NCBI GenBank assembly: GCA_964019415.1
Contig: OZ025886.1
Span: 731,884 to 795,883, forward strand
From: Ianthella basta
Lineage: Eukaryota > Porifera > Demospongiae > Verongiida > Ianthellidae
Direction: 5' to 3'
Length of the DNA stretch: 64,000 nt
Shown: positions 232-55,223 of the stretch, one piece after another
How the letters are laid out: every line of letters starts with the position of its first letter
Numbering within the stretch: position 1 is the stretch's first letter
The notes under the pieces: model-generated
The model's database searches: none
What the model was told of the DNA's origin: nothing
The model's input: only the letters and a program-made list of their open reading frames with translations
Program-made: the position numbers and the translations under genes

Positions 232-288
232 TCACAAACTATCAGTTTCTTGCCTTTCAAAGTTGGGGTTGCAATTGATTGTAGAATC
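232..288 (-). CDS. Gene A terminal coding exon (short cytoplasmic tail, ETDSL end)
   Basis: The acceptor ACACAG is at 289-294 on the plus coordinates, and 19 codons including TGA follow. The equivalent exons in B and C share the acceptor, the frame and the final residues QETDSL-stop, while the middle differs (NCNPNF here; NDYPWANF in B; NDYPNL in C). Conservation of frame and stop in three copies is what identifies this otherwise tiny exon. The last residues fit a class III PDZ ligand (acidic at -2, Leu at 0). Confidence 0.72.
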   Translation of the reverse strand, partial: DSTINCNPNFERQETDSL

Positions 289-2773
289 CTGTGTAGTTGG
301 GTAAGAAAGGTCAGAATAGATTTTCTAAACTAGAAATTAGGGCAGTCCTCTCATAAACAATTAATGTATATAGTACAATGGACAACAAAACAGCTACCTA
401 CCACTTGATCCACATTCTTGTCTTTGCCCCGCCTCCTGTATGGAAGTCAATGCACAAGTTCACCGGCCACTACCCTACGCTAACAACACTACTGCATGCT
501 GTTGATAATGTACATACCTGCCCACATACCTTAGGTAGATGACCATACATATCACCACAGGGACAGTGACTGCTATGATGACACCACAAACAACAAGACC
601 TGCTATGAGACCGCTTTCAACAATGGGCGGAAGACGAACTGCACAGAGAGTATGAAGGGAAAGGGGCAGGGAGCTATAGTGGTTCGATCTGCTTGTCAAA
701 ATTGGTGATAAGTATGTATGTTAACTAACAGTTCCTTGCAAATTGAATATACTAACCACAGTCAGTAACAACTCACTTATGTTCACAGTTGCATATCCAG
801 TGGATTGGAACTCATCATACTGTCTGTTTGGAATAGCATCCCTCCTCCTCCTGGCCATAGGAGGAGCAGGCGTGACCTGGAGAGAGCAGTCACATGCAAG
901 GAGTGGGTTCAGTGCTGCTGCATGTGGTGCTTGCTCTCTCCCTCACCTCAGTGCTGACAAAGTATCTGACAAAGCAGTCCAAAGTCATCCCTGCCATGAC
1001 AGGGCCATTCCTGTACCGACCAGGGAAGTCATTTGGCTCAGATTCATCACCCACACCATATTGGTAAGGGAAGTTGATCCCTTCTGCAGTTGGATCAAAC
1101 TCAGATGCAATATATGGCACATTGTCCTCTGCATTGTCGTATGTACCAAATGTGCTGTTGTCTGGGAAGGCTGTGTCTGGAGCTGTGCTTCTAGTTGTTG
1201 GGAGAATGTTTCTGATGCATAACACCCACAGGTGACTGCAAGGAGTTGGGAGTGGAAAAAGATGTAACAATACTAAGAAGAAGACAAGGAGCTGAGAAGA
1301 AAGCAGGTGTGCACTGCATGGGTGGTGGGGAAGAGGGCAAATGTACATGTACATATTCCCCTTGTATTAATATTGCCCTTGCTCCCTTGGAAATGTATAC
1401 ATAAGATTAATGTCACAATTGTATCTACCTTATATAGTTCACACTCATACACTCCTAGCATACACAGATTATAGCTATACACTGCTATACCTTAGAAAGT
1501 CTTGACGGACAAATGTAGGTGCAGGGATCACAATCTCCACTACTGCACTAGATCCAGCCCTAATTTGAGGCACACTGATAGAGGGAAGTTCCTCTCCTGG
1601 AGGAATTGTGGCCTCAAGCAAGGTGGCAAACACTTCACTCAAGGGAGGACAAAACTCCAGAACTGGATCATTGTTTGCTTGGACAGTCACATTGTAGTTA
1701 GTGAAGGGCTGCAGTCCAGTGATGTTGTATGAGGTATCAGCGACTGGGGTACTAGTTGTTGTCCCTCCAAGTTGACCGTATGTCAGTCGGTAGTTCCCAC
1801 TGAATGGACACGGTGGTGCTGTCCACCTCACATAGATGTAAGTTGGACGTCTCTCAGTAGCTGTGAGGTTGTCAGGAACAGCTGCATGCATGAATGGATG
1901 AGACTGCACAGTTAATGTTCCTCCTCAGATTAACAGAAAATATGTCCACTTACCCAGCACAATGTGTCATATGTCAGATTAAATATTATGAAGACAGCAT
2001 GCTACCTGATACTACAGATGAAAATATGCAGTACTAGCTTGTTAGCTGTTACGAGTGTTTTTAGGGGCTGCCGCAGTTGTACGTCAATGCTTACATTTAT
2101 AATTGAATGTATTGGGCGAAGTATTGGGTATAGGGAATTTTAGTCTGGAGACCAGACCCTAAGCGCCCCTGCGCAAAATTAGGGTCTGGTGCAACTCGTA
2201 TTCGGAAGTTGTGCAGGGATTTGAGATTCCGGCGCCTCCAATCAGATTACAGAACGCGCGAAATGCGGCGAAAGACGGATAATATCTGGCGCGAATATGG
2301 GAATTTTGGTGCGCTAACGTCGAAGATAACATGAAGAACGAGTTTGGTAAATAGTTTCTCGCATAAACTGTTTCTCACACGCTCTACTTCTTCGCTTAGT
2401 CGCAGATACTTTTCAGTTTCCGCGAAGCAGGGTCTGCAAACAAAGGCGCGTTGCGCGTGTTCGTCATCAAGAAGAGTCGCTGTGGATCCTGAAGCGGCTT
2501 GGAGTTCCTGGAGACACCTCAGTACACGTTCAGACGAGATCGATGCCAATATTCTCCGTTCTTTAGAGCCAACTGCTTTCTCACAAAGCTTGCAATATTC
2601 CATTAGACGCTAAACTCGTTCTTCATGTTATCTTCGACGTTAACGCACCAAAATTCCCATATTCGCGCCAGATATTATCCGTCTTTCGCCGCATTTTGCG
2701 CGTTCTGCAATCTGATTCAGGAAGTACCCTCCACCATCCAGAAAAGGGTCAATTATGCTGGTACGTGCTGGCA

Positions 2774-2852
<79 letters not shown>

Positions 2853-2976
2853 GTGTGTGTGTGTGTATGTGGTATGTGTGTGGTGTGTGTGTATGTATGT
2901 GGTGTGTGTGGTGTGTGTGTGCACGTGGTGTGTGTGTGGTGTGTGTGTGCATGTGGTGTGTGTGTGGTGTGTGTGT

Positions 2977-3056
<80 letters not shown>

Positions 3057-6000
3057 GAAGTTACTGAGGTATTATGACGCGATGTCATGTTTACCTATTG
3101 TGAGTGACAGAGCAGCGACCGAAGGGAGCAAGTATTTCGAGTTGGAGCGGCAGCCCCACGAGTTTTTAACTCGAAATACTTGTTTGCCACAGGTGGCTAT
3201 AATGCATTAGAGTGAAACTCACTTGTTTCAGTCAGTGTGAATGTCTCCATTTGTGTTGGTCCATCACCAGCTCGTGTGTTCCTTGCAAAGATGGTGACAT
3301 AGTACTCCTCACATGGGTAGGTCAGGTTGACCACAACAGTGGTGGTGGGGTGGGGCACTGTAGCCCCACCCACTGAGTCTGTGTCATTCATGACATCCAG
3401 AACATAGTAGATGATACCCACAGAGTCCGGAGTGGGGGGCACTCCCAGGAAGGAGGGGGGAGTCCATGTGAAGGTGACACTGAGGCAGTTCACACTGGTA
3501 GCAAAGGCAGCCACTTCACCTGGAACATCTGTTATAGGAGGAAGGGCAAAGTCAGCTCAGAGAAGTGGGGAAAGACTGTGATCAGATGGTTGCGGTATAT
3601 CACCAATCACATTTCATATCATCTACTCCATTCACTTCACTAGCGAACATGATCAGTTGTAGATTCATTCTCCACCCACCATAGATGAGCACCTCCTTGG
3701 TGGCCTTGTACTGCATTGGAATGTCTCCCTCAGCACTGTCGTTGGCTCTGCAGGTCACTGCACAGGTGTAGTTCCCACTGTCATTCACTTGACTGAAGCT
3801 GAGTGTGCTGTACAGTCCCCCAACTTCCACCTCAACAGAAGTACCAGTGTTTTCCACTGTGACTCCACTGACAAGGTCCCTGCTGTACAGGAGAGTACCA
3901 TCCTTGAACCAAACAAGGTAGAACACTGTTGTGTTCCAGGAACAAGTGAGAGTGACATTGTCTGTGGCATTACCATCCAGTGGATCCACGTCAGGTGTCA
4001 GGGTCACATCTGGGTCATCTGGAACATGGGATGACAGAGATCAATAGATCTTAGTAAGGAGTTAAAGATCAGCAGTGTGATGCTTTATGTATAGGGAAAC
4101 AATATGACACCTCATACATAATCTGCTACCAACCTGGCTCCACTGTCATGAAGTCTTCACTGGCAGAGGATCCATTGAAGAACAGGTTCTCTGCTGTCAC
4201 CGACACAGTCAGGTTGTCACATGCTGGTAGGTTGGGTGCCTCCACTGTGTTAGTTGGGTGGTCCACTGTAGTACAGAACAACACTGCTGAAGTGCTGTTA
4301 CTCACTTCCACAAAGTACCTCAACGTTGGGTTCCCTCCAGGGGGAATCCCCGTATACATGGAATTGTCCATCAAGGGCATCCAGTCAATGACAGCTGTCA
4401 CTGGTGATGTGTCATTGGATATGACGGCAGCTGATAACCCACTTGGTGCACTGGGAGATTCTGAGTAGAATGACAGGACAACATCTCTGTACATGTTGGC
4501 ACCTAAACTGCTGCTGTGCATGAAATGTATTCACTACTTACCATAGACAAACACCTCAGTGGTGTCCAGCAGATTCCCTGCAATCATACCAAACTCCACA
4601 CCCCTGGCCCCACAGGTCATAGCACAGGTGTAGTTGCCACTGTCATCCAATGTAGCATTGTGAATGGTCAGAGCGGACATCATCAGTGTGAAGTCACTGT
4701 CAATGTAGATCCCTTGTTGGGGTGCCATCAGGACATATGGAGCTGCCAGATCTTCATCATAGAGCAGTGCACCATTCTTGTACCATGCAACATAGTACAC
4801 TGAGGTGTACCATGAGCACACGAGAGAGATATTGCTGCCAGCCAGATAGTCTGCTGTGGACTCCACAGTTGACACATTGACTGTTGGCAGAACTGCATGG
4901 AGAAGGCACATTAGAACACACAGTGTGTTGGTAAATGTAACACAATGGAAGATGCTCTTTCATACAAACTACATGCACACAGTTGCATTTGCTGCAGACG
5001 CCTGCTCAACTTCCAAAAATAGCTGCTTGCTGCACATTTATGATAATGATTCTTATTTAAGTAGCTCCCAGTGTTAGATGGTGCAACTGTTACCATCAAG
5101 AATAGAAGACACTATTAGCAAATTGGTACCATTTTGGCACCAGCTTTAGCAAGTAAGTGTACCAATGTTGTTTTTGATCAGGAGGAATGTTCACAGCAAG
5201 ACAGCTAAGGGAACAACAATTCCATACTCACAAACTGGACAGATCAACTGGTATTACATGGTATGTAGTACCAGGTACAGACAGAATAATCAAGAACAAA
5301 ATTGAAAAACAATTAACAATTTCAGAGATGGAGTCATTGGTCCACTGCAAGTAAGTCATTCAGAATTGCCCTCATGCCTCCAATAAATTCACTTACCGCT
5401 ACTCTTAACCACTTAACTGTGAAATTATTATTTTGAGCCACTACCAGTAGTGTACCATGCATGCCCAGCAGAACAGCCCAGGCTGCCCAGACCAGATTTT
5501 TAGGCCTGGCCATTCTTTTGTATAGCAAAGATACTTGCTGGCCTGTGCATGTGGCCATCTAGGTAAGATTGTCTTGACGTGGCCTGACCACCTTTAAAGT
5601 GCTTCTTCCTGGCCTGCCATGCCATCCCACCTGTGTCCAAACTGCTTCAGTATCACATGTACATGTGTGCATGTGTGGGAAATTGGCAAATGCCCTCTCC
5701 ATGCACTACCAACCTGGCTCCACTGTCATGAAGTCTTCATTGGCAGGTGTTCCATTGAAGAACAGGTTTTCTGCTGTCACTGACACAGTCAGGTTCTCAC
5801 ATGCTGGCAAGTTGTTTGCCTCCACTGTGTTAGTTGGGTGGTCCACTGTGGCACTGAACAACACTGCTGAAGTGCTGTTACTCACTTCCACCAAGTACCT
5901 CAACATTGGGTTCCCTCCAGGGGGAATTCCCGTATACATGGAATTGTCCATCAAGGGGATCCAGTCAATGACAGCTGTCACTGGTGCTGTGTCATTGGAA

Positions 6001-9000
6001 TTGATGTCAGCTGACAATCCATTGGGTGTATTGGGAGGTTCTGAGTAGAATGATAGGGCAATTAACACACTGCAGCTCTGTTCATGTTGGCAGGCTAAAC
6101 AGTTTGGTGAAGTATATTCAGTACTCACCATAGACAAATATCTCGGTGGTGTCCAGCAGATTGGCTGCAATCATGCTAAAATTGACTCCCCTGGCCCCAC
6201 AGGTCACAGCACAGGTGTAGTTGCCACTGTCATCCAATGTAGCATTGTCAATGGTCAGGGTGGACATCATCAGTGAGAAGTTACTGGCAATGTAGATCCC
6301 TTGTTGGGGTGTCATTAGGACATATGGAGCTGCCAGATCTTCTTGATAGAGCAGCACTCCATCCTTGTACCATGCAACATAGTACACTGAGGTGTTCCAT
6401 GAGCACATGAGAGAGATGTTGCTGCCAGCCGGATAGTCTGCTGTGGACTCCACAGTTGACACATTGACTGTTGGCAGAACTGGAGAAGGCACATTAGAAC
6501 ACACAGTGTGTTGGTAAATGTCGCACAATGGAAGATGCTCATTCATACAAACTACATGCACACAGTTGCATTTGCTGCAGACGCCTGCTCAACTTCCAAA
6601 AATAGCTGCTTGCTGCACATTTATGATAATGATTCTTATTTAAGTAGCTCCCAGTGTTAGATGGTGCAACTGTTACCATCAAGAATAGAAGACACTATTA
6701 GCAAATTGGTACCATTTTGGCACCAGCTTTAGCAAGTAAGTGTACCAATGTTGTTTTTGATCAGGAGGAATGTTCACAGCAAGACAGCTAAGGGAACAAC
6801 AATTCCATACTCACAAACTGGACAGATCAACTGGGATATACGGTATGTAGTACCAGGTACAGACAGAATAATCAAGAACAAAATTGAAAAACAATTAACA
6901 ATTTCAGAGATGGAGTCATTGGTCCACTGCAAGTAGGTCATTCAGAATTGCCCTCATGCCTCCAATACATCCACTTACTGCTACTCTAACCACTTAACTG
7001 TGAAATTATTATTTTGAGCCACTACCAGTAGTGTACCATGCATGCCCAGCGGAACAGCCCAGGCTGCCCAGGCCATGGCCTGCCCATTCTTTTGTATAGC
7101 AAAGATACTTGCTGGCCTATGCATGTGGCCATCTAGGTAAGATTGTCCTGACGTGCCCTGACCACCTTTAAAGTGCTTCTTCCTGGCCTGCCATGCCATC
7201 CCACCTGTGTCCAAACTGCTTCAGTATCACATGTACATGTGTGCATGTGTGGGAAATTGGCAAATGCCCTCTCCATGCACTACCAACCTGGCTCCACTGT
7301 CATGAAGTCTTCATTGGCAGGTGTTCCATTGAAGAACAGGTTCTCTGCTGTCACTGACACAGTCAGGTTCTCACATGCTGGCAGGTTGGGTGCCTCCACT
7401 GTGTTAGTTGGGTGGTCCACTGTAGTACAGAACAACACTGCTGAAGTGCTGTTACTCACTTCTACCAAGTACCTCAACATTGGGTTCCCTCCAGGGGGAA
7501 TTCCCGTATACATGGAATTGTCCATCAAGGGCATCCAGTCAATGACAGCTGTCACTGGTGCTGTGTCATTGGAATTGATGTCAGCTGACAATCCATTGGG
7601 TGTATTGGGATGTTCTGAGTAGGATGATAGGGCAATTAACACACTGCAGCTCTGTTCATGTTGGCAGCTAAACAGTTTGGTGCAGTGTATTCACTACTTA
7701 CCATAGACAAACACCACAGTGGTGTCCTGCAGATTGTCTGCAATCATACCAAACTCCACTCCCCTGGCCCCACAGGTCACAGCACAGGTGTAGCTGCCAC
7801 TGTCATCCAATGTAGCATTGTCAATGGTCAGGGTGGACATCATCAGTGAGAAGTTACTGGCAATGTAGATCCCTTGTTGGGGTGTCATCAGGACATATGG
7901 AGCTGCCAGATCTTCATCATAGAGCAGCACTCCATCCTTGTACCATGCAACATAGTACACTGAGGTGGTCCATGAGCACACGAGAGAGATGTTGCTGCCA
8001 GCCGGATAGTCTGCTGTGGACTCCACAGTTGACACATTGACTGTTGGCAGAACTGCATGGAGAAGGCACATTAGAATACACAATGAGTTGGTAAATGCCA
8101 CACAAGGGAAGATGCTCATTCATACAAACTACATGCACACAGTTGCATTTGCTGCAGACGCCTGCTCAACTTCCAAAAATAGCTGCTTGCTGCACATTTA
8201 TGATAATGATTCTTATTTAAGTAGCTCCCAGTGTTAGATGGTGCAACTGTTACCATCAAGAATAGAAGACACTATTAGCAAATTGGTACCATTTTGGCAC
8301 CAGTTTAGCAAATTAAGTGTACCAATGTTGTTTTTGATCAGGTGGAATGTTCACAGCAAGACAGCTAAGGGAACAACAATTCCATACTCACAAACTGGAC
8401 AGATCAACTGAGATATATGATATGTAGTACCAGGTACAGACAGAATAATCAAGAACAAAATTGAAAAACAATTAACAATTTCAGAGATGGAGTCATTGGT
8501 TCACTGCAAGTAGATCATTCAGAATTGCCCTCATGCCTCCAATACATCCACTTACTGCTACTCTAACAACTTAACTGTGAAATTATTATTTTGAGCCACT
8601 ACCAGTAGTGTACCATGCATGCCCAGCGGAACAGCCCAGGCTGCCCAGGCCATGGCCTGCCCATTCTTTTGTATAGCAAAGATACTTGCTGGCCTGTGCA
8701 TGTGGCCATCTAGGTAAGATTGTCATGATGTGCCCTGACCACCTTTAAAGTGCTTCTTCCTGGCCTGCCATGCCATCCCACCTGTGTCCAAACTGCTTCA
8801 GTATCACATGTACATGTGTGCATGTGTGGGAAATTGGCAAATGCCCTCTCCATGCACTACCAACCTGGCTCCACTGTCATGAAGTCTTCATTGGCAGGTG
8901 TTCCATTGAAGAACAGGTTCTCTGCTGTCACTGACACAGTCAGGTTCTCACATGCTGGCAGGTTGGGTGCCTCCACTGTGTTAGTTGGGTGGTCTACTGT

Positions 9001-12000
9001 AGTACTGAACAACACTGCTGAAGTGCTGTTACTCACTTCCACCAAGTACCTCAAGGTTGGGTTCCCTCCAGGGGGATTTCCCGTATACATGGAATTGTCC
9101 ATCACGGGCATCCAGTCAATGACAGCTGTCACTGGTGCTGTGTCATTGGAATTGATGTCAGCTGACAATCCATTGGGTGTATTGGGACGTTCTGAGTAGG
9201 ATGACAGGGCAATTAACACACTGCAGCTCTGTTCATGTTGGCAGCTAAACAGTTTGGTGCAGTGTATTCAGTACTCACCATAGACAAACACCTCAGTGGT
9301 GTCCTGCAGATTGGCTGCAATCATACCAAACTCCACTCCCCTGGCCCCACAGGTCACAGCACAGGTGTAGTTGCCACTGTCATCCAATGTAGCATTGTCA
9401 ATGGTCAGGGTGGACATCATCAGTGAGAAGTTACTGGCAATGTAGATTCCTTGTGGGGGTGCCAACAGGACATATGGAGCTGCCAGATCTTCATCATAGA
9501 GCAGCACTCCATCCTTGTACCATGCAACATAGTACACTGAGGTGTACCATGAGCACACGAGAGAGATGGTGCTGCCAGCCGGATAGTCTGCTGTGGACTC
9601 CACAGTTGACACATTGACTGTTGGTAGAACTGGAGAAGGCACAATAGAACACATGGTGTGTTGGTAAAATGGAACTTAATGAATTGTGTGAAGTTAATGG
9701 CAAGGCTACGGAATTCCTGCAATATCTTATAGCTAGGCAGTCGACAGTCGGCAGCACTGATGTCACAGCAAGGAGCACGTGTCTACACAGGGCACAGCAC
9801 TTATGTCACATCTTCTGTGCATGTGCATGTATCACCTCGCGGTAAGAGCAGCTGCAGCGACCTGCACGGTGACCAGGTGTTTCTTAACATTGTAATTTAT
9901 TTTCCTCCGTCCTTGTGACGTGAATAGAGTTAGGCTCTATCCACAGGTGTGACCACATTACTACTTAGCAAGGTAAGCAAGGTCAAAGGTGAAAGGTTAA
10001 AGGGTTAAGGTCAAAGGTTAAGGGTCTAAGGTGGCACCTGGGGATGCTCCCCCATTAACCCAAGTAGTGGGCCCTCACGGCCCACTTCCGAAGGTGAGTG
10101 AACACCAGGTGAGTTCCGGAGGGGTGGCATAGACCATAGACATTATATAATGTCACACACGGTGTGTTGGTAAATGTCACTCATTGCAAGATGCTCTTTC
10201 ATACAAACTACATGCACACAGTTACATTTGCTGCAAACACCTGCTCAACTTCCAAAAAGGCAGCTTCTTGCTGCACATTTACAATATTGTTTCTTATTTG
10301 TATAAGTAGCTCCCAGTGCTAGACGATGCTCAACTGTTAGCATCATTTTAATGGCAAGAACAATAGGTATTATCAGTGAATTAGCACCAATTTTGCACTA
10401 GTTTAGCAATTAAGTGTGCCAATGCTGTTTTTGACCATGAGGAATGTTCAGAGCAAGACAGGGAACAACAATTCCATATTCACAACTTGGACAGAGCAAC
10501 TGATCAGACAGATCAATTGCTATAAACGGTTTGCAATACCAGGTAGAGACAGAATAATCAAGCGAAGCAGTTAACAATTTCAGAGATGGAGTCATTGGTC
10601 CACTGCAAGTAGGTCATTCAACATTGCCCTCATGCCTCCAATACATCCACTTACTGCTACTCTAACCATTTAACAGTGAAATTATTATTTTGAGCTACTA
10701 CCAGTAGTGTACCATGCCATCCCACCTGTGTCCAAACTGCTTCAGTATCACATGTACATGTGTGCATGTGTGGGAAGTTGGCAAATGCCCTCTCTGCTAC
10801 TAACCTGGTTCCACTGTCATGAAGTATTCACTGGCAGGAGTTCCATTGAAGAACAGGTTCTCTGCTGTCACTGACACAGTCAGGTTCTCACATGCTGGCA
10901 GGTTGGGTGCCTCCACTGTGTTAGTTGGGTGGTCCACTGTATCAGTGAACAACACTGCTGAAGTGCTGTTACTCACTGACACAAAGTACCTCAAACTTGT
11001 GTTCCCACCAGGGGGAATCCCTGTAGCATTGTCAAGCAATGCCATCCAGGAGATGACCGCAGTCACTGGCATTGTGTCATCTGATCTGATGACAGCTGAC
11101 AGACCAGTGGGTCCATCAGGACGTTCTAAAAAGTGGTAGAGTAAAGATTTACAATATATTGTCATCCCTGTTGTTCACTTGCAGCTGAAGGAATGAAAGA
11201 ATTCACACTATAGCACTTACCATACACAAACACATCCGAAGTGTTTTGCAGATTTGCTGTAATCTCACTAAAATTGCCTCTCCATGCCTCACAGCTCACA
11301 GCACAGGTGTAGCTGCCACTGTCATCTAATGCAGCATTGACAATAGTCAGAGTGGACATCATCATTGCATAGTTACTATTAACATTGATCCCTTGTGGGG
11401 GGCCCGTCTGGACAGAGGGAGTCACCAGATCTTCCTTGTAGATCAATACACCATTTTTGTACCATGCAGCATAGTACACTGAAGTGCTCCATGTGCACTT
11501 TAGCTGGATATTGGTACCGGAGGCTGCATCAACCCTATCAGGTGACACTGTGACTGTAGGTGGGACTGATAGTAGAGCAGTAGAACAGATTATGTATAGT
11601 AAATAATCAACAAGGGATAACAAAACGACAAAGGTAAGTGGTTCAAACACCTCGCATTAAGATATCTTCTAACTCCCCCATCTGCTAACCTGGCTCCACT
11701 GTCATGAAGTCTGTACGAGCAGGCATTCCACTGAGGAGGATGTTCTTTGCAGTCACTGACACAGTAAGACTCTCACATGCTGGAAGGTTGCATGCCTCCA
11801 ATGAGTTCAGTGGATGGTCCACTGTATCAGTGAACAACACCGTGGACATGCTGTTACGCACTTCCACACAATACCACAAAATTAGGGCTCCTCCTGGGGG
11901 GATCCCAGTAGCACTGCTCACCAAAGGCAACCAGGTGATATTAGCAGTCACTGGTTTGGTATCATCTGGTTTGATGACAGCAGTCACATTACTGGGGGCA

Positions 12001-15000
12001 TCAGGAGTTTCTGAATACAAAAATCAGGCTGATTGATTAAACATCCTTTCGTAGGCTGGCTTGCACAGTGAGGAATGAGACATTTAAAACTACCTACACT
12101 TACCATATATAAACACATGAATAGTGACCTTCAGATTCGCTGGGATCATACCAAACTGCACCCCCATTGCTCTACAGGTCACAACAAAGGTGTACTTGCC
12201 ACTGCAACCCAATGCAGCATTGACAATAGTCAGAGTGGACACCCTCAATGTGTAGCTACTGACAACAGTGATCCCTGGTAGAGGTTTCACCACGACAGTG
12301 AGAGTGGCTAGGTTTTCTGCATAGATTAGTATGCCATTCTTGTACCATGCCACATAGTACACTGAGGCACTCCATGTGCCCTGGATAGAGATGTTGTTGC
12401 CAGCTGAATAGTTTGCTGTGGACTCCACAGTTGACACATTGACTGCTGGCAAACCTGGAGAAGGCACATTATAACACATGACATAAAGATAACTATTATT
12501 TTGAGCTACTACCAGTAGTGTACCATGCCATCCCACCTGTGTCCAAACTGCTTCAGTATCACATGTACATGTGTGCATGTGCGGGAAATTGGCAAATGCC
12601 CTCTCTGCTACCAACCTGGCTCCCCTGTCATGAAGTCTTCACTGGCAGATGTTCCATTGAAGAACAGGTTCTCTGCTGTCACTGACACAGTCAGGTTCTC
12701 ACATGCTGGGAGATTGGGTGCCTCCACTGTGTTAGTTGGGTGGTCCACTGTAGCACTGAACAACACTGCTGAAGTGCTGTTACTCACTTCCACAAAGTAC
12801 CTCAACGTTGGGTTCCCTCCAGGGGGAATCCCCGTAGCATTGGCCATCAAGGCCATCCAGGAGATGTTAGCTGTCACTGGTGATGTGTCATTGGAATTGA
12901 TGTCAGCTGACAATCCATTGGGTGTATTGGGACGTTCTGAGTAGGATGACAGGGCAATTAACACACTGCAGCTCTGTTCATGTTGGCAGCTAAACAGTTT
13001 GGTGCAGTGTATTCAGTACTCACCATAGACAAACACCTCAGTGGTGTCCCGCAGATTGGCTGCAATCATACCAAACTCCACTCCCCTGGCCCCACAGGTC
13101 ACAGCACAGGTGTAGTTGCCACTGTCATCCAATGTAGCATTGTCAATGGTCAGGGTGGACATCATCAGTGAGAAGTTACTGGCAATGTAGATTCCTTGTG
13201 GGGGTGCCAACAGGACATATGGAGCTGCCAGATCTTCATCATAGAGCAGCACTCCATCCTTGTACCATGCAACATAGTACACTGAGGTGTACCATGAGCA
13301 CACGAGAGAGATGTTGCTGCCAGCCGGATAGTCTGCTGTGGACTCCACAGTTGACACATTGACTGTTGGTAGAACTGGAGAAGGCACAATAGAACACATG
13401 GTGTGTTGGTAAAATGGAACTTAATGAATTGTGTGAAGTTAATGGCAAGGCTACGGAATTCCCGCAATATCTTATAGCTAGCCAATCGACAGTCGGCAGC
13501 ACTGATGTCACAGCAAGGAGCACGTGTCTACACAGGGCACAGCACCTATGTCACATCTTCTGCGCATGTGCATGTATCACCTCGTGGTAAGAGCAGCTGC
13601 AGCGACCTGCACGGTGACCAGGTGTTTCTTAACATTGTAATTTATTTTCCTCCGTCCTTGTGACATGAATGGAGTTAGGCTGTATCTTCAGGTGTGATCA
13701 CATTACTACTTAGGGGTGGGTAAGCAAGGTCAAAGGTGAAAGGTTAAAGGGTTAAGGTCAAAGGTTAAGGGTCTAAGGTGGCACCTGGGGATGCTCCCCC
13801 ATTAACCCAAGTAGTGGGCCCTCACGGCCCACTTCCGAAGGTGAGTGAACACCAGGTGAGTTCCGGAGGGGTGGCATAGACCATAGACATTATATAATGT
13901 CACACACGGTGTGTTGGTAAATGTCACTCATTGGAAGATGCTCTTTCATACAAACTACATGCACACAGTTGCATTTGCTGCAAACACCTGCTCAACTTCC
14001 AAAAAGGCAGTTTCTTGCTGCACATTTACAATATTGTTTCTTATTTGTATAAGTAGCTCCCAGTGCTAGACGATGCTGTTAGCATCATTTTAATGGCAAG
14101 AACAATAGGTATTATCAGTGAATTAGCACCAATTTTGCACTAGTTTAGCAATTAAGTGTGCCAATGCTGTTTTTGACCATGAGGAATGTTCACAGCAAGA
14201 CAGCTAAGGGAACAACAATTCCATACTCACAACTTGGACTGAGCAACTGGTATATGTGGTATGCAGTATTAGGTAGAGACAGAATAATCAACAACGAAAT
14301 TGAGAAACAATTAACAATTTCAGAGATGGAGTCATTGGTCCACTGCCCGTAGGTCATTCAAAATTGCCCTCATGCCTCCAATACATCCACTTACTGCTAC
14401 TCTAACCAATTAACAGTGAAATTATTATTTTGAGCTACTACCAGTAGTGTACCATGCCATCCCACCTGTGTCCTAACTGCTTCAGTATCACATGTACATG
14501 TGTGCATGTGTGGGAAGTTGGCAAATGCCCTCTCTGCTACCAACCTGGTTCCACTGTCATGAAGTATTCACTGGCAGGAGTTCCATTGAAGAACAGGTTC
14601 TCTGCTGTCACTGACACAGTCAGGTTCTCACATGCTGGCAGGTTGGGTGCCTCCACTGTGTTAGTTGGGTGGTCCACTGTAGCACTAAACAACACTGCTG
14701 AAGTGCTGTTACTCACTTCCACAAAGTACCTCAAGGTTTGGTTCCCTCCTGGGGGAATCCCTGTAGCATTGTTCATCAATGCCATCCAGGAGATGTTAGC
14801 TGTCACTGGTGTTGTATCATATGGTGTGATGCCAGCTGACAAACCATTGGGTGTATTGGGAGGTTCTGAGTAGAATGATAGGGCAATTAACACACTGCAG
14901 CTCTGTTCATGTTGGCAGCTAAATAGTTTGGTGAAGTGTATTCAGTACTTACCATAGACAAACACCTCGGTGGTGTCCTGCAGATTGGCTGCAATCATGC

Positions 15001-16378: not shown

Positions 16379-16550
16379 CTTTACATAGCACCACAGTAGA
16401 GCAAGCATGCAAGCAAGCAAGTGTGCATGGGAAAACAAAGATTACATGACATTATACTATTACCTCTGTGAAATAGCACCATGCACCAAGATATGTACAG
16501 ATGCAGTATGATTTCTCTGGTGGAGGAGTTAGAGTGTATAGTTACAAGGA

Positions 16551-16596
16551 ACACACACGCGCGCGCAAACACACACACACACACGCACACACACAA
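16551..16596. repeat. (CA)n microsatellite
   Basis: Short imperfect CA/CG dinucleotide tract upstream of gene A. Confidence 0.85.
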
Positions 16597-17045
16597 GGTG
16601 CCCTTCCACTAAGTTAAATGCTGTATGGTCTTTCATGCATGGGGCTCCTGAAAAGTGTATACCCCAACACAGACACAAGAGAAGTAATGGGTTTTGATGC
16701 ATATGACTAGTCATAAATGAATAGTAAGGCGAGGCATCCACCCACACATTTTCTACAATAGTGGGATAAAGTGGGCACATAGGTTAATAGATAAATTGTC
16801 TGAATGGAAACTATTAGTAAAAGTCATTATGTCCAATCTTCCTCTGAACTTGTATATACTATGGCTGGTAGTCTTTACACATGCTGTCATCCAAGTTGCA
16901 AATGTGCCAGTTAACGACACGTTGCATCATGAAAACACGCATGTGCCACTATTACAAGCTGTGGATGACTAGGAAAAGGGCTGAAACAAATTTGTCTATC
17001 ATCTACATGTTTGCATGGAGGGCTACTATCTGGAGATCACTACCT

Positions 17046-17690
17046 TATACGTACAAAATTTTGCGGCACATTATTATCGCAAATTTCGCGAACCCGTGGA
17101 GGTTCGCGAACATTCTTACAATTTCCCAGGGCCATATGCACGTATATACAGAGGGCGATAAATGCATGTGTAGTAAACAAACGCGTTTCTTATGTGGGGA
17201 ATGGCCAAGAAGACGATCAACGATTGCTTTAAGATCGTAGACATCTTTACCAAGGACTTGCCGGTTCGAGCAATCTACGCTCCGGTAATCATGCATACTA
17301 TCGGGCCGCTGCGCCGAACGATCACGGAGCAAAGGCAGGATATGGTGCGCGGAACGTGTCCCGCAGTCTTTCTAGACTGCCACTGCATAAGGATCTTTGC
17401 TGTCTCCACTTTCCCGTTCACACTGAAGAACTGCTCCTGACGATGCAGTCTAATCATCCTTGTAAACGTGATACCCGCAAACGCAACTGCATCCGTAAAC
17501 TGTCAGAAATGATCCTCAAAGCGCCAGTAGATCGAACCAAAGCGTAAAGCGATGCCTGAACCACTCTAGGTGCTGATATCTTGCGCACAAAGGGAGCCAT
17601 TTGCGAAATTATAATCTGGAAAATTGTCAGGTATGGGGCATTCGCGCGCGAAATATACATCCCGCGAAAATTTGCACGTATACGGTATCA
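17046..17690. mobile_element. CpG-rich TIR element of about 640 bp
   Basis: The left end tatacgtacaaaattttgcg and the right end are imperfect inverted copies (about 45 bp). The interior is CpG-rich, in contrast to the AT-rich surroundings. Short ORFs on both strands were seen (for example plus 17192-17440 and minus 17045-17332) with no recognisable domain. The target duplication is not clear. Confidence 0.5.
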
Positions 17691-20400: not shown

Positions 20401-20424
20401 TGCACTGGACTTCCATTAATCAGT

Positions 20425-30869: not shown

Positions 30870-30882
30870 ACATGTGTATGGG

Positions 30883-30934
<52 letters not shown>

Positions 30935-47123: not shown

Positions 47124-47180
47124 TCACAAACTATCAGTTTCTTGCTTTTCTAAGTTGGGGTAGTCATTGATTGCAGAGTC
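47124..47180 (-). CDS. Gene C terminal coding exon
   Basis: 19 codons including [21 protein letters not shown]-stop. Same acceptor and frame as A and B. Confidence 0.75.
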   Translation of the reverse strand, partial: DSAINDYPNLEKQETDSL

Positions 47181-50100
47181 CTGTGTAGTTGGGAAAGAAA
47201 TGTCAGAATAGATGTTCAAAACTAGAAATTAGGACAGTCCTCTCATAAACAAACAACGTATATGTTATATATAGCACAATGGACAACAAAACAGCTACCT
47301 ACCACTTGATCCACATTCTTGTCTTTGCCCCGCCTCCTGTATGGAAGTCAATGCACAAGTTCACCGGCCACTACCCTACGCTAACAACACTACTGCATGC
47401 TGTTGATAATGTACATACCTGCCCACATACCTTAGGTAGATGACTATACATATCACCACAGGGATAGTGACTGCTATGATGACACCGCAAACAACAAGAC
47501 CTGCTATGAGACCACTCACGACAATGGACGGAGGAGGAACTGCACAGAGAGTATGAAGGGAAAGGGGCTGGGAGCTATAGTGACTGCTTCTGCTATTTTG
47601 CTTGTCAAAATTGGTGATAAGTATGTATGTTAACTAACAGTTCCTTGCAAATTGTACAGTACATTGAACACACTAACCACTGCAATGCAGTAACAACCCA
47701 CTTATGTTCACAGTTGCATATCCAGTGGTTTGGAAGACATTGTACTGTCTGTTGGGAATAGCATCCCTCCTGCTCCTGGGAGGCATGGCCTGGAGAGAGC
47801 AGTCACATGCAAGGAGTGGGTTCAGTGCTGCTGCATGTGGTGCTTGCTCTCTCCCTCACCTCAGTGCTGACAAAGTATCTGACAAAGCAGTCCAGTCTCC
47901 CTGCCATGACAGGGCCATTCCTGTACCGACCAGGGAAGTCATTTGGCTCAGATTCATCACCCACACCAAATTGGTAAGGGGAGGTGATCCCTTCTGCAGC
48001 TGGATCAAACTCAGATGCAATATATGGCACATTGTCCTCTGCATTGTCGTATGAGCCAAATGTGCTGCTGTCTGGGAAGGCTGTGTCTGGAGCTGTGCTT
48101 CTAGTTGTTGGGAGAATGTTTCTGATGCATACCACCCACAGGTGACTGCAAAGAGTTGGGAATGTTAAGAGGTGTAGCAAGAAGATAAGGAGTTATGCAA
48201 AGGGAGCTAGGGTGTACTGGGCTGTGGGGTGGGGTGTGGAGAAGAGGGTGACTGTACATGTACATATACTCCTTTAATATTGCCCCTACTCCCTTTGAAA
48301 TGTACACAATGTCACACATACCCTACGTTCTTGGTATGTATGCCATATGTATAGTTCATGCTCATGCACTCCTAGCATAAACAGAATACAATTATACACT
48401 ACAGATTACATATAGCTATACACTATACTATACCTTAGAAAGACTTGACGGGCAAATGTAGGTGCAGAGATCACAATCTCCACTATTGCACTAGATCCAG
48501 CCCTAATTTGAGGCACAATGATAGAGGGAAGTTCCTCTCCTGGAGGAACTCCTGGAGGAGCTGTGGCCTCAGGCAGAGTGGCGAATACTCCACTCAAAGG
48601 AGGACCGAACTCCACAACTGGAGCGTTGTTTGCTTGGACAGTCACCATGTAGTTAGTGAAGGGCTGCAGTCCAGTGATGTTGTATGAGGTATCAGCGACT
48701 GGGGCACTAGTTGTTGTCCCACCAAGTGGACCATATGTCAGTCGGTAGTTCCCACTGAATGGACTGGGTGGTGCTGTCCAATTCACATAGATGTAAGTTG
48801 GACGTCTCTCAGTGGCTGTGAGGTTGTCAGGAACAGCTGCATGTATGAATGGAGGAGAGTGCACAGTTAATGCTCCTCCTCAGATTAACAGAAACCATGT
48901 CCACTTACCCAGCACAAGCACCTCCCTGGTGGCACTGAACTCTTCAGACACTTGCTGTACTTCACCTCTAACCACCTGCCGAGCACGACATGTCACTGCA
49001 CATGTGTAGTTTGCTGAATCAGTGATAAAGGCATCTGTGACTTGTAGAGTGCTCCAGCGAGCAGCAAAGTCAACAGTGACACTTGCACTACCAGTGAAGC
49101 TCCCATACTTCTGTCTCTCCACTCCCCTGACCTGGTCCTCTCCATAGAAGGAGACACCATTCCTCAGCCAAGCCACATAGTAGACTTCAGCATCCCAAGA
49201 GCAGTTCAACATGATGGTGTTGTTGGCACTGGCTGGAGCTCGGAAGAGGTAGGTAACAGGGTCCTCCATTGGAGAGAGACTGACATTGACAGCAGCTGAG
49301 GAGTAGGGAAGTAAGGTGGAAGCACAGGTATCTAAAGGCATAATGCCAATATATTATGTAGCATCAAACCAATAAGTCATAAAAGAGATTTCTATGCAAC
49401 ATTTAGTGGAGATATGTATGTATACAAGGGCAAAATGTTGTGCAGTGATTAATTCATGATTAATGTCAGACAGCGTTAACACTACCTTATCAATGCAAGT
49501 ATACATATGTATGCAAATTGCACTGAATGTGGACATATCTAGAATTGGAGCTCACTTGTTTCATTCAGAGTGAATGTCTCCATTGTTGTTGGTCCATCAC
49601 CAGCTTGCCTGTTCCTTGCAAAGATGGTGGCATTGTACTTCTCACATGGGTAGGTCAGGTTGACCACAACAGTGGTGGTGGGGTGGGGCACTGTAGCCCC
49701 ACCCACTGAGTCTGTGTCATTCATGACATCAAGAATATAGTAGATGATACCCACAGGGTCCAGAGTGGGAGGCACTCCCAGGAGGGAGGGGGATGTCCAG
49801 GTGAAGGTGACACTGAGGTAGTCTACACTGGCACTAAAGGTAACCACCTTGCTTGGAACATCTGTTATAGGAGGAGGGCAAAGTCAAACAATAGCGGTGG
49901 GGAAAGATGTGAACAAACAACTTCATCACATCACTGTGATCAGATGGTTGCGGTATGTCACCAATCCTATTCTCATATCATCTACTCCATGCACTTCATT
50001 AGTGAACATGATCAGTTGTAGATTCATTCTCCACCCACCATAGATGAGCACCTCCTTGGTGGCCTTGTACTGCATTGGAATGTCTCCCTCAGCACTGTCC

Positions 50101-53100
50101 TTGGCTCTGCAGGTCAATGCACAGGTGTAGTTCCCACTGTCATTCACTTGACTGAAGGTGAGTGTACTGTTCTGCCCCCCAACCTCCACCTCAACAGAAG
50201 CACCAGTGTTGTCCACTGTGACTCCACTGACAAGGTCCTTGCTGTACAGGAGAGTACCATCCTTGAACCAGACTAGGTAGAACACTGTTGTGTCCCAGGA
50301 ACAAGTGAGAGTGACACTGTCTGTGGCATTCCCCTCCAGTAGATTCACATCAGGTGCCAGAGTCACCACTGGGTTATCTAGAACATGAAAATAATATTAA
50401 TTTTACATTGCTATCATACCCATGCTAAGTTGAGCTATGACTTTTGTAAGAAGCATGTATACATATGAATCTGCCAAGTTCTGCTGCCAACCTGGCTCCA
50501 CTGTCATGAAGTCTTCACTGGCAGAGGTTCCATCGAAGAACTGATACTCTGCTGTCACTGACACAGTCAGGTTCTCACATGCTGGCAGTTTGGGTGCCTC
50601 CACTGTGTTAGTTGGGTGGTCCACTGTAGTACAGAACAACACTGCTGAAGTGCTGCTACTCACTTCCACCAAGTACCTCAAAGGTCGGTACTCTACAGGT
50701 GGAAGCATCGGAGCATTCTCCAATAAGGGTATCCAGGAGATGTTTGCTGTCACTGGTGTTATGCCAACTGACAGACCATCAGGGGGAAGTGCTGAATAAT
50801 GGAGTAGACATGTCACATTAACTGTGGACATTAATGCAATGTGCATAAACTGTATCATGTCAAGAGGTGTCCTTAAATGTGTGAATCAAGCCAAGTCAAT
50901 CAGTCAGCCAGAATGTGAATGGTGTGTCAGAAAGTTGATCATTATAGAATGCCACCTAAGTGAACACCTTAGTTAGGTGCAAAGAGAATGCAGACAAGTA
51001 CAGTGCCTGAGTGAAGATGAACTACAAGTAAAGAAGGAGCTTCATCGAGCACTGGAGCAATACAACGGTGAACACTTCATACTGACTATAAACACCAGCA
51101 ACAAGAGAATTGAAGATGTTAGAGCATGTTCTGGATGATGTCTTACCTCTGCAGTTCGCTCCATCATCAGCCAACGTGAAGCCAGCAAAGCAGGTGCAGG
51201 AGAAAGAGCCAATTGTGTTTAAGCACGATTGCTGACAATTATCTGTGTCCATTGCACACTCATCAATGTCTGCATGGGTTGGGGGGAGGAATGTGTATAG
51301 AGTACAATAGTACTGGTGACTAAAAAAATGAAAGCAAAACAGGGATTGATCAGAGCTGGTCATACAAAGTACTTTCTCAGTAAGAGTGAGTTTGTGAGAC
51401 TTTTCATGTTTGGGAGAATGCAAATGGAAAAGATATAAGTAATGGTTGGGCTTAGCCATGCAGTTCATCCCATTGAAATCCAATAATATACATCAGCCAG
51501 GATTGAATGCCCCCCCCCCCCCCCCCCACACACACACACATTTGTGTGCACATGTATATACACAATGGCAGAACATACCGGAATTTACTGTAGAAAAATG
51601 GAGTTATACAGTAAGACAGATCAGCGCACTCTATGTAAGAATACAAGTCTGACCTACTGTCCTTGTACTTAATGTGTGCTGCTTGCATGGGATTGCTGTT
51701 TCTCCAAACACTATCCAAGCCATCATGCTATTTATACATTTCTGCTTGGTGTCAGAGGGCCACTTGGCATTGATGGAAGATCCAGAGGTATGTACTGTAC
51801 AAGCATTAGTTCAGAGTCATGTCATGTGGCTGGGTACTTTATTAAGTACAAGCAACTCTACCAGGCCTATATTATTTATTCTGCAGCCCTGCTAATTTGA
51901 GTCTAATCTAAACTAATCGAGATAAGTTCGGATTTATAGAGTGCACGCATATGTATATAAAATTTTGTGAATTAGCTGGTATATAACTGCAAAACATCCC
52001 AATGCCTATACTGCAAAATTAATGCATACAGCATATATACTAGGAGACATTTGGTAAGTGAACACTGTTTATCTGACAGTATGTAGTACATGAACAATGG
52101 CACAACCACTGGAACTCAGAACATGGCTAGTGAATTTCAGATAGGGTAGCTTAATTAGCTGGTAAAATGAAATTATGAAGTATGCATGCATTCACCTGTG
52201 CATGTCATTCCATTTCCAGTGTATCCACCATTGCAGGTACATGTGAAGGACCCAAGTGTGTTTGTGCACATGGCATTTGAATCACAAAGAGAGGACAAAC
52301 ATTCATCAATGTCTGCAAGAGTAGGTTAGGAAGATGAGATTATTATAATGTGGACAAAAAGTGATTGATAAAATAGCCAGAAAAGCATAAGTAAATATTT
52401 ACCCATGCAACTCATTCCATTTCCAGTGTATCCATCATTGCAGGCACATGTGAAGGACCCAGGTGTGTTTGTGCACATGGCATTTGAATCACAAGGAGAC
52501 GAAATACATTCATCAATGTCTGCAAGAGTAGGTTAGGAAGATGAGGTTATTATAATGTGGACAAAAGTGATAATGGCCAGAAAAGCATAATTAAATTAAT
52601 ATTTACCCATGCAACTCATTCCATTTCCAGTGTATCCACCATTGCAGGTACATGTGAAGGACCCAGGTGTGTTTGTGCACATGGCATTTGAATCACAAGG
52701 AGACGGCAAACATTCATCAATGTCTGTAAGAGTATGTTAGGAAGGTGAGATTATTATAATGTGGACAAAAAGTGATTGATAAAATGGCCAGAAAAGCATA
52801 ATTGAATATTTACCCATGCATGTCATTCCGTCTCCAGCATATCCATCATTGCAGGCACATGTGAAAGACCCAGGTGAGTTTGTGCAAATGGCATTTGAAT
52901 CACAAAGAGACGACACACATTCATCAATATCTGCAAGAGTAGGGTTAAGATGTTCGAACTGTGTTATTAAAAAGGTGGCACAATAAAAGTGATGAAATTA
53001 AGCATTCAAAGGCATGCCACTAGAGTGGTAATCAATATAATTATATCAATATAATAGTTACAGTATTACAGGCAATTTTGTAGGGAATTTACTTTGATTG

Positions 53101-55223
53101 CAATCGATTGATATACCTTTGAGATCACATCCACCAATATTTCCAACTGCCAAATTGTTAACATTATAATATCACTTTGGCATTAGGCCTGCCCAACTGC
53201 CAAGTGTAAAAACCACTACAATTTGAGCAATCTGCCAAAATAGTTTCCAGGCAAATTTCTAGCCCCATTATGGTAATTCTGGCATGCATAACTGTCAGGT
53301 TATCCAGAATGCATACTCATGGTGTTTAACAATTATCCAAAATCCAATTATACAAAATGAAAGAAATTAAGAAGTGATTGATTTCTCAAGTGCACAGCAT
53401 ATTTAGGGAGCAGGACAATAGTGAACACTTCATCCAGAATATATACACCAACTAGAAAAGGAATAGATTAAACCAGGTTGGAACAATGTGGGTACATTGG
53501 TCTTACCTATGCAAGTCACCCCATCATCAGCCAATGTGAAGCCAGCAAAGCAGGTGCAGGAGAAAGAGCCAATTGTGTTTAAGCACGATTGCTGACAATT
53601 ATCTGTGTCCATTGCACACTCATCAATGTCTGCATGGGTTGGGGGGAGGAATGTGTATAGAGTACAATAGTACCGGTGACTAAAAAGAATGAAAGCAAAA
53701 CAGGGATTGATCAGAGCTGGTCATACAAAGTACTTTCTCAGTAAGAGTGAGTTTGTGAGACTTTTTATGTTTGGGAGAATGCAAATGGAAAAGATATAAG
53801 TAATGGTTGGGCTTAGCCATGCAGTTCATCCCATTGAAATCCAATAATATACAACAGCCAGGATTGAATGCCCCCCCCCCCCCCCCACACACACACATAT
53901 TTGTGTGCACATGTATACACATACCGGAATTTACTGTACACAAAATGGAGTTATACAATAAGACAGATCAGCGCACTCTATGCAAGAATACTAATTTGAC
54001 CTACTGTCCTTGTATTCAATGTGTGCTGCTTGCACGGGATTGCTGTTTCTCTAAAGAGAAACGCCACTCGAGTGAAGCCCGTAGAAGTAGCCCAAACCAC
54101 AAGTTAAGTGGAAGAGACCAGTGTAAACACTGTACAAACCATCATGCTGTTTATACATTTCTGCATGGTGTCAGAGGCCACTTGGCATTGTTGGAAGATC
54201 CAGAGGTATGTACTGTACAAGCATTAGTTCAGAGTCGATCATGTCATGTGGCAGGATACCTTATTCAGTACAAGGAACTCTATCTAATATATTGTTTATT
54301 CTGCAGCCCTGCTAATTGAGTCTAATCTAAACTAATCGAGACAAGTTAGGATTTATAGAGTGCATGCATACGTATATAAAATGCACTGAAATTATCATGC
54401 ATGCACTCACCTGTGCATGTCATTCCATTTCCAGTGTATCCACCATTGCAGGCACATGTGAAGGACCCAAGTGTGTTTGTGCAAATGGCATTTGAATCAC
54501 AAAGAGACGACAGTGTCACACATTCATCAACATCTGCAAGAGTAAGGTTAGGATGTTTGAACTGCGTTATTAAACGGGTGGCACAAAAAAGTGATGAAAT
54601 TAAGCATTCAAAGGCATGCCACTAAAATGATATCATGAATATAATAATATCAATATTATTGGTACAGTATCACAGGAAATTTGATAGGGAATTCACTTTG
54701 ATTACAATTGATTGATATACCTTTGAGATCATATCCGCCAATATTTCCAACTGCCAAATCGTTAACATTATAATATCACTTTGGCATTAAGCCTGCCCAA
54801 CTGCCAAGTGTAAAAGCCACTACAATTTGAGCAATCTGCCAAAATAGCTTCCAGGCCATTTTCTAGCCCCATTATGGTAATATTGGCATGCATAACTGTC
54901 AGGTTATCCAGTATGCATACTCATGGTGTTTAACAATTATCCAAAAAACAAATGAAAGAAATTAAGAAGTGATTGATTTCTCAAGTGCACAGCATTGGGA
55001 GCAGGACAATAGTGAACACTTCATCAAGAATATATACACCAACTAGAAAAGGAAGAAATTAATAAACCAGGTTGGGACAATGTGGGTACATTGGTCTTAC
55101 CTGTGCAAGTCATTCCATCAGCAGCCAATGTAGAGCCAGCAAAGCAGGCACAGCGAAAAGAGCCATCAGTGTTGAAACAAGCGTCTTGACAATTATCTGT
55201 GTTCTGTGCACACTCATTAGTGT
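47124..55223 (-). CDS. Gene C: EGF-Ig-FN3 single-pass membrane receptor, short form (5' incomplete)
   Basis: Third paralogue on the minus strand. Exons in order: EGF 55101-55223, 54411-54533, 53507-53629, 52814-52930, 52607-52723, 52403-52519, 52196-52312, 51147-51269; FN3 50492-50791; Ig 50039-50377; FN3 49556-49861; Ig 48909-49331; FN3 48434-48836; membrane-proximal 47860-48145; furin exon 47702-47789; TM 47431-47539; micro-exon 47303-47336; terminal 47124-47180. The 3,305 nt close in frame (about 1,100 residues). Exons and introns closely match gene B, so the copies are recent. C lacks the Ig-FN3 pair that B has at 27034-27807 and the EGF array expansion. The 5' end beyond 55223 was not identified. 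Confidence 0.75.
47303..47539 (-). CDS. Gene C TM exon and cytoplasmic micro-exon
   Basis: TM exon 47431-47539 and micro-exon 47303-47336, same phases and lengths as in A and B. The tandem donor 12 nt into the intron is conserved. Confidence 0.77.
47702..48145 (-). CDS. Gene C membrane-proximal module and furin-site exon
   Basis: Module exon 47860-48145 ([23 protein letters not shown]) and stalk exon 47702-47789 ([10 protein letters not shown], then [11 protein letters not shown]). Phases fit. Confidence 0.7.
48434..48836 (-). CDS. Gene C membrane-proximal FN3 exon
   Basis: 403-nt exon, phase 1-2, nearly identical to 24989-25391. Confidence 0.76.
48909..49331 (-). CDS. Gene C Ig exon (VAWLRNG type)
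   Basis: 423 nt, phase 1-1, [17 protein letters not shown] and [11 protein letters not shown]. It has the same alternative internal acceptor as B, 36 nt away. Confidence 0.76.
49556..50377 (-). CDS. Gene C Ig-FN3 exon pair (FYLVWFKDG type)
   Basis: Ig exon 50039-50377 ([30 protein letters not shown]) and FN3 exon 49556-49861 ([14 protein letters not shown]), both phase 1-1. Confidence 0.78.
50492..50791 (-). CDS. Gene C first FN3 exon after the EGF region
   Basis: 300-nt phase 1-1 exon ([32 protein letters not shown]). It is 15 nt shorter than its B counterpart, from a five-codon loss in the A-B strand region. Confidence 0.75.
51147..51269 (-). CDS. Gene C cbEGF exon nearest the FN3 domains
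   Basis: 123 nt, phase 1-1, [16 protein letters not shown] and [17 protein letters not shown]. Almost identical to 53507-53629, reflecting an internal duplication of about 2.36 kb. Confidence 0.77.
51512..51528. repeat. Poly(C)/CA tract
   Basis: Run of C followed by CACACA in a gene C intron. Equivalent tracts are at about 31228 and 53871, consistent with duplication. Confidence 0.85.
52196..52930 (-). CDS. Gene C four cbEGF exons of the 206-bp family
   Basis: Exons 52196-52312, 52403-52519, 52607-52723 and 52814-52930, each 117 nt, phase 1-1, spaced 204-207 bp. These are the unexpanded and more diverged counterpart of the gene B array. Confidence 0.76.
53507..53629 (-). CDS. Gene C cbEGF exon (CAMDTDNC type)
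   Basis: 123 nt, phase 1-1, [16 protein letters not shown] then [13 protein letters not shown]. Its upstream intron 53630-54410 duplicates 51270-52195. Confidence 0.75.
54411..54533 (-). CDS. Gene C cbEGF exon
   Basis: 123 nt, phase 1-1. It carries the two extra codons also seen at 35950-36072, so those two exons are orthologous positions in B and C. Confidence 0.73.
55101..55223 (-). CDS. Gene C most 5' cbEGF exon found
   Basis: 123 nt, phase 1-1, DTNECAQNTDNCQDAC then [17 protein letters not shown]. Counterpart of 36643-36765. Phase 1 entry means further upstream exons must exist. Confidence 0.72.

Follow-up and report, generated by a model that had tools for sequence, protein, structure and literature searches.

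Receptor protein tyrosine phosphatases (RPTPs) of the R3 subtype share with uroplakins 2 and 3 (UPK2/3) a juxtamembrane domain marked by a C3X(n)C4NGPL (C..CNGPL) signature, and the excerpted text of PMC5242461 also describes a furin site in many invertebrate R3 members, fixed intron phases, and members without a protein tyrosine phosphatase (PTP) domain in Ciona. The subtype is defined, in PMC5336234, by an ectodomain of fibronectin type III (FN3) domains only and by a single PTP domain. Clustered transmembrane receptors of immunoglobulin (Ig) type are known from the allorecognition loci of Hydractinia (Alr) and Botryllus (fester/FcoR; for FcoR see the excerpt of PMC12065747). Here we analyse three neighbouring minus-strand genes, A, B and C, in a 64,000-nucleotide stretch of the Ianthella basta genome (the window; positions 731884-795883 of contig OZ025886.1, here C19). 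The anchors of these genes look like those of RPTPs, with which the genes probably share ancestry, and we slightly favour the reading that A, B and C belong to a family of about 23 receptors that derives from RPTPs or shares an ancestor with them, that mostly lacks a phosphatase, and whose outer modules would bind ligands.

An RPTP-like anchor common to 23 genes

Genome-wide searches were made in one 209-Mb assembly. The juxtamembrane exon of the window genes had 24 matches there, 23 of them close (A, B and C included) and one distant (C19:5.53 Mb, 38% identity), and the close copies are located on C19 (18), C22 (2) and C7 (3). The tandem clustering noticed in a first-pass annotation of the window is supported. 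The fixed anchor that it described is conserved but is not private to the window, being common to 23 genes; because four of these have phosphatase exons downstream, the anchor is RPTP-like and not of unknown kind.

All 23 juxtamembrane exons encode NGPV, with R and not C preceding NGP, and 22 of the 23 linker exons encode RxRR (951k deviates; labels of this form are our names for individual members), where cleavage is predicted. An NGP juxtamembrane motif and a furin-like RxRR before the transmembrane (TM) exon are also found in R3 RPTPs (PTPRB, PTPRJ, PTPRQ and invertebrate relatives), and the gene C model has a phase-1 intron before and a phase-2 intron after the TM exon, as the excerpt of PMC5242461 gives for R3 RPTPs and UPK2/3. 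Uroplakins UPK2/3 and the PTP-less R3-related genes of Ciona in the same excerpt likewise join an RPTP-type juxtamembrane and TM region to a short non-enzymatic tail, although variable Ig/EGF arrays are not described there; the comparison covers the juxtamembrane and TM region.

Unlike R3 RPTPs, the window genes carry Ig and EGF exons besides FN3 exons in their ectodomains, and in place of a single cytoplasmic PTP domain we found none in the window genes and exons of two domains in the relatives D and 1100k. R3 membership fails on both ectodomain and PTP number, and no named RPTP subtype fits the window genes. The R2A phosphatases (LAR/PTPRF, PTPRS, PTPRD) resemble the family in their Ig and FN3 ectodomain and in the tandem PTP of D and 1100k, but differ from it in that the window family has alternating Ig/FN3 exons and EGF arrays and that no PTP exon was found for A, B or C.

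To map the genes, template exons were taken from open reading frames, copies were placed by translated search, and splice sites were then set. The genes and their anchor exons are as follows.

232..20486, minus strand: gene A, a putative exon chain of signal peptide, 9 Ig, 11 FN3-type, TM and short tail
23709..40101, minus strand: gene B, a putative exon chain of 21 EGF, 3 Ig, 4 FN3-type, TM and short tail
47124..58803, minus strand: gene C, a predicted complete model of 19 exons and 1,121 amino acids
47860..48145 (C), 24421-24706 (B) and 947-1235 (A), minus strand: juxtamembrane (anchor) exon, from homology search and the gene C model
47702..47789 (C), 24263-24350 (B) and 777-876 (A), minus strand: linker exon with R-x-R-R (furin-like)
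47431..47539 (C), 24013-24121 (B) and ~529-630 (A), minus strand: TM exon
47303-47336 and 47124-47180, minus strand: the two cytoplasmic exons of gene C, predicted to encode 11 and 18 residues

The spliced model of gene C is open from ATG to stop, with no internal stop and GT-AG at all junctions, and runs in the order signal peptide, 8 EGF, FN3a, Ig, FN3c, Ig, FN3z, juxtamembrane, furin-like linker, TM and two tail exons. Signal-peptide exons with a phase-1 end lie upstream of the gene extents first given, at 58707-58803 (C) and ~20390-20486 (A), and the genes are longer than had been drawn. The EGF/Ig/FN3-type exon counts (A 0/9/11, B 21/3/4, C 8/2/3) agree exactly with those of the first-pass annotation, and no EGF exon was found in gene A by translated search.

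Six contiguous 3'-terminal exons are common to A, B and C, namely the last FN3, juxtamembrane, furin-like linker, TM and two cytoplasmic exons; the seventh that had been counted as shared, the membrane-proximal Ig exon before the last FN3, is present in B and C and absent from A, where a 277-bp (GT)n array occupies the corresponding stretch. A zinc-finger-like open reading frame at this place in gene A was rejected (zf-AD, E 0.21, below cut-off).

Side features of these genes include a 177-bp tandem repeat at 19957-20397 (2.5 copies, 97%), whose unit includes an inverted repeat and which extends into the signal-peptide exon region of gene A, and, on the minus strand at 62728..62817 between gene C and its upstream neighbour, an extra copy of the signal-peptide exon that is possibly the remnant of a lost gene. 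Elsewhere, copies of the TM exon with no juxtamembrane match occur at C19:979000-979110 and C1:3536328-3536438 and are possible gene remnants.

Phosphatase and short cytoplasmic tails

Phosphatase exons lie downstream of the anchor on the same strand in 4 of the 23 members (D, 629k, 647k and 1100k), among the matches listed from a genome-wide search in which 150 of 422 candidates were scored. Gene D is the next gene after the window, with its anchor at C19:723486 and its phosphatase exons downstream. Pieces of it match Y_phosphatase at 5e-57, and its best PDB matches are PTPRS and LAR, to which its first PTP domain also scores best; the single-domain chains 2nv5, which we take to be PTPRD, and PTPRG score ~194-195 bits, and PTPRB 157. 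Exons of two PTP domains are present in D and 1100k. In 1100k the second domain has IHD in place of the catalytic-site HC, a loss that is usual for D2 domains, and in gene D the second domain is interrupted by satellite DNA. This tandem satellite, at C19:717600-718400, follows the second phosphatase domain and cuts it off.

Within positions 705,884-825,883 of the contig (120 kb), the only PTP exons found were those of gene D, with none for A, B, C or 799k. The 1.5-kb flanks of the anchors are uninformative on PTP absence, because even the four phosphatase genes show no PTP exon there. A homologous short tail exon with an AG acceptor and a stop was recovered in 16 of the 19 remaining members (consensus DSxIxxNPNFExQE), the C22 and C7 copies being more divergent and weak (E 0.004-0.086); in 1705k, 1710k and C7:8462k it was not found in the 1.5-kb flanks. 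The C-terminal end of the gene A tail is DSTINCNPNFERQETDSL, followed by a stop. Most members are apparently without a phosphatase and have a tiny tail instead.

These tails were compared with the ITIM and ITAM (immunoreceptor tyrosine-based inhibitory and activation motif) definitions. As tyrosine is confined to B and C among the 16 last tail exons, ITIM/ITAM motifs are not kept in this exon, and there is no tyrosine in the other (11-residue) tail exon of the window genes. NPNF is reminiscent of NPxY/F adaptor motifs, and (T/I)DSL, the end of 8 of the 16 tail exons, resembles C-terminal PDZ ligands. For tyrosine-kinase tails, we saw no kinase match near any anchor among the matches listed (130 of 2397 candidates scored).

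A secreted form produced by retention of the intron that follows the juxtamembrane exon (in most genes 70 nt long) was considered and rejected. This intron is open for 18 codons to a PCM-stop in 10 of the 23 genes (A, B, C and D included), and because the remaining 13 have lost the stop or the frame, its similarity is better explained by sequence exchange than by coding. A single event of PTP loss was also rejected, the FN3z-exon tree requiring at least two changes of tail label and the juxtamembrane-exon tree forcing only one; the juxtamembrane tree is nearly unresolved, exchange confounds both trees, and genes of unknown tail were labelled short. Outside the family, many phosphatase-domain matches fall in long clusters at C6 ~4.2-7.6 Mb and C12 ~4.4-6.1 Mb, suggesting large expansions of other phosphatase genes. 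Also outside the family, a silicatein search, made as a check on sponge identity, gave six loci, of which four carry the SCWAF motif of ordinary cathepsins and two did not match our pattern for it.

Exon units: identity, turnover, exchange and selection

Rescoring splice sites up to 24 nt from each called boundary, with every phase allowed, left all 58 acceptors and all 58 donors of the domain exons in phase 1. The domain exons counted here are all Ig, EGF and FN3-type exons minus the last FN3 exon of each gene. The statement that every domain exon is phase 1-1 (a class 1-1 module) holds for these 58; the three last FN3 exons are instead phase 1-2.

Profile searches of the exons upheld the Ig assignments and, in part, those of FN3. 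A Pfam Ig family match was obtained for 13 of 13 scanned Ig exons (of 14; a degenerate exon of gene A was omitted), an fn3 match for 6 of 6 FN3c and last-FN3 exons (gene C FN3c at only 18.2 bits, cut-off 25), and the EGF exemplar exon scored above its Pfam cut-off. The FN3a/FN3b type, which makes up 12 of the 18 FN3-type exons, gave a weak fn3 match in 6 of 12 (best E 0.0063) and aligned with the FN3c profile at 61% probability (E 8e-5), so that these 12 exons are FN3 by weak evidence; a PDB profile search with the FN3a alignment returned one match, at chance level. The Ig exon models as a V-type fold, its predicted structure falling in the V-set by the fold criterion of VIA-align. No Calx-beta match appeared in the Pfam scans, in which EGF exons were represented by one exemplar; Calx-beta and Wreath domains typify the sponge aggregation factor family.

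The number of Ig exons ranges from 1 to 11 in the 20 of 23 members with any assigned, in line with the free change of domain number proposed earlier. The counts, which are lower bounds with each exon given to the nearest downstream anchor, are 629k 5, 647k 11, 670k 5, D 1, A 9, B 3, C 2, 799k 5, 833k 3, 849k 5, 889k 3, 945k 5, 951k 2, 1000k 2, 1028k 2, 1100k 3, C22 2 and 9, and C7 1 and 1; the Ig search assigned none to 1705k, 1710k and C7:8462k. Gain and loss of units by tandem duplication are indicated. The window has the following features.

33216..36092, minus strand: recent tandem array of EGF exon units in gene B, 206-bp period, 13.9 copies
4134..15690, minus strand: FN3a-Ig exon pairs repeated along gene A, in part as a recent duplication unit of ~1.58 kb
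12104..12445, minus strand: Ig exon of gene A that is degenerate, having lost the two canonical cysteines

In the core EGF array, exon identity is 95.8% (13 units) and intron identity 96.9% (11 equal-length introns). As the exons are no more alike than the introns, the core units are very young.

Sequence exchange between copies, phosphatase-tailed and short-tailed alike, is also indicated. The juxtamembrane exon is 94% identical, its 3' intron 89% and its 5' intron 56% (91 pairs, 14 chosen loci), similarity blocks between members start and end abruptly, and dS is unequal between adjacent exons within the same gene pair. A run test covered 15 of the 18 genes on C19 (1705k, 1710k and 951k excluded), and the values of 6 of 105 pairs were reached by 0 of 2000 permutations; these pairs include phosphatase-tailed 1100k with B and with C, and phosphatase-tailed 629k with 799k.

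The Ig/FN3 modules are not tied to this anchor but also precede other membrane-proximal domains elsewhere. Ig/FN3a exon arrays occur at C8:3.16-3.24 Mb (3.159-3.244) and C19:1.59-1.64 Mb, where the genome search gave no juxtamembrane match on C8 or on C19 between 1.10 and 1.70 Mb; one array end was examined in each cluster. Directly after the Ig/FN3 exons at C19:1.64 Mb (1638500-1644500) come matches to NIDO (1.4e-6), AMOP (at 2.4e-4 short of its cut-off) and VWD (1.1e-18), and at C8:3.22 Mb an Ig/FN3a array is followed by EGF-like stretches and then by FN3 (1.2e-12), which may belong to another gene. From order and strand, we infer that the Ig/FN3 exons are spliced to the NIDO-AMOP-VWD or C8 parts, and with NIDO-AMOP-VWD these ectodomain units would have an end of a third kind. 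NIDO-AMOP-VWD proteins, presumably mucin-4-like, thus have the same Ig/FN3 exon types directly upstream, but their end differs from the window-gene anchor.

Selection was assessed as dN/dS (NG86; mean dN over mean dS, all pairs) between paralogues of one assembly, with matches that were too short excluded. The ratio is 0.30 for the juxtamembrane exon (22 of 23 genes; dN>dS in 7 of 231 pairs), 0.28 for the linker (23 genes; 18 of 253), 0.51 for the membrane-proximal Ig (19 genes; 23 of 171) and 0.61 for the last FN3 (21 genes; 4 of 210). Pooled values in the neighbourhood are 0.56 for FN3a, 0.62 for IGa, 0.51 for IGb, 0.70 for FN3c, 0.62 for the last FN3, 0.46 for EGF2 and 0.54 for EGF1 (43 of 378 EGF1 pairs exceed 1; the value within gene C is 0.86). 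The membrane-proximal Ig has a ratio of 1.10 in B, C, D and E, with 4 of 6 pairs above 1 and few changes. Diversification focused on Ig loops was rejected: over 8 aligned copies, entropy is 0.54 in loops and 0.44 in strands (P 0.17 by permutation). The first-pass annotation had named purifying selection throughout as evidence against its recognition proposal; as per-domain ratios are mostly 0.28-0.70 (1.10 for one Ig exon in 4 genes, 0.51 in 19) and the loops hold no significant excess of variable Ig sites, such selection is largely what is seen, between paralogues only.

Competing explanations and significance

We best read the members as surface receptors evolving by duplication and exchange of exon units. 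The outer parts would bind ligands on other cells, matrix or microbes; phosphatase-tailed members may transmit a signal, and short-tailed members may be adhesive, decoy or co-receptors for the same ligands, the short tail perhaps serving trafficking or adaptor binding. With such roles, a common repertoire of binding modules would feed into several kinds of tail. Several observations count against a family of RPTP origin or ancestry with ligand-binding modules. The juxtamembrane region has no Pfam match and lacks the Cys that precedes NGP in R3 RPTPs and UPK2/3, and the link to these proteins consists of shared motifs and intron phases, as PMC5242461 describes them. PTP exons were connected to the four anchors by position and strand, and for the other 19 no PTP exon was found, beyond A, B, C and 799k among 150 of 422 candidates only. 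The tail core varies, with exact NPNF in 7 of 16 (including A), SPNF in 3 of 16, PWANF in B and YPNL in C, the tail exon of 1000k has a premature stop, and the candidate signal-peptide exon before B (~43.4 kb) has a 1-nt deletion. The run test presumes even variability, which domain constraint violates, and uneven constraint could yield part of its signal. There is no general sign of ligand-driven diversification in dN/dS.

A somewhat unlikely alternative is that these are ordinary adhesion or developmental receptors whose domain number drifts near-neutrally by unequal crossing-over in class 1-1 arrays. It would account for dN/dS below 1 in nearly every exon class and for EGF units whose introns are as similar as their exons, since new EGF copies with such introns have not yet been filtered by selection. 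The excerpt of PMC8001218 presents class 1-1 modules as general in Metazoa and as what shuffled animal ectodomains normally consist of, so exon phase by itself is no pointer to recognition. In our judgement, however, about 23 copies that differ in their tails and reach 11 Ig exons in a gene make a large set for this explanation. We think it unlikely that the cluster is an early-branching animal's recognition locus with one pool of V-type Ig/FN3/EGF units, interchangeable ends (phosphatase, short tail, NIDO-AMOP-VWD) and a conversion-uniform anchor, forming a phosphatase-based paired-receptor system. There the tandem phosphatase end would signal and the short tail would serve as adhesion, decoy or co-receptor; gene conversion would keep the anchor uniform and move outer units between ends; and the whole would operate in the manner of the paired activating and inhibitory receptors of vertebrates, without using ITAM or ITIM.

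Allorecognition, with polymorphic receptors whose homotypic binding determines whether individuals fuse or reject each other, seems improbable to us. Clustered transmembrane V-type Ig receptors, changing domain number, exchange and mixed tails resemble the cnidarian and tunicate loci in outline, but dN/dS is mostly well below 1, the last tail exon has no conserved tyrosine, of the ITIM/hemITAM type seen in Hydractinia Alr and Botryllus fester/FcoR or otherwise, and a term search of the main text of an Amphimedon graft transcriptome study (PMC5450542) gave no tyrosine phosphatase, immunoglobulin, fibronectin or receptor. We give equally little credence to innate receptors for microbes or symbionts diversified by birth and death of exon units: family expansion and copy variation would fit, and Ig and FN3 genes are among the responding or expanded sets in sponge immune studies (excerpts of PMC6208332 and PMC8242945), but the exons scanned contain no domain specific for microbial ligands. 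Very unlikely, finally, is a family made up chiefly of duplicates in decay, with a few functional phosphatase receptors among them. The broken signal-peptide copy of B, the degenerate Ig exon of A, the premature stop in 1000k and the TM exon at C19:979000 without an anchor match speak for decay; gene C is nevertheless intact across 19 exons, dN/dS is 0.30 in the juxtamembrane exon (22 genes) and 0.28 in the linker (23 genes), and the short tail exon is retained in 16 of 19 members.

The domain architecture is real and striking, and recognition of cells or microbes is a candidate function of the genes. Among the open-licence papers listed on this family or function, we found no title or abstract opening that describes such a receptor cluster. 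The locus places a variable Ig-type receptor cluster beside the receptor-phosphatase family, sequence seems to pass between members with a phosphatase and members apparently lacking one, and exon-unit turnover is measurable in this family. If polymorphic between individuals, it would offer a tangible candidate for recognition of self and non-self or of symbionts; otherwise, it would still be a clear case of RPTP tail diversification beside the uroplakin precedent (PMC5242461, as excerpted).
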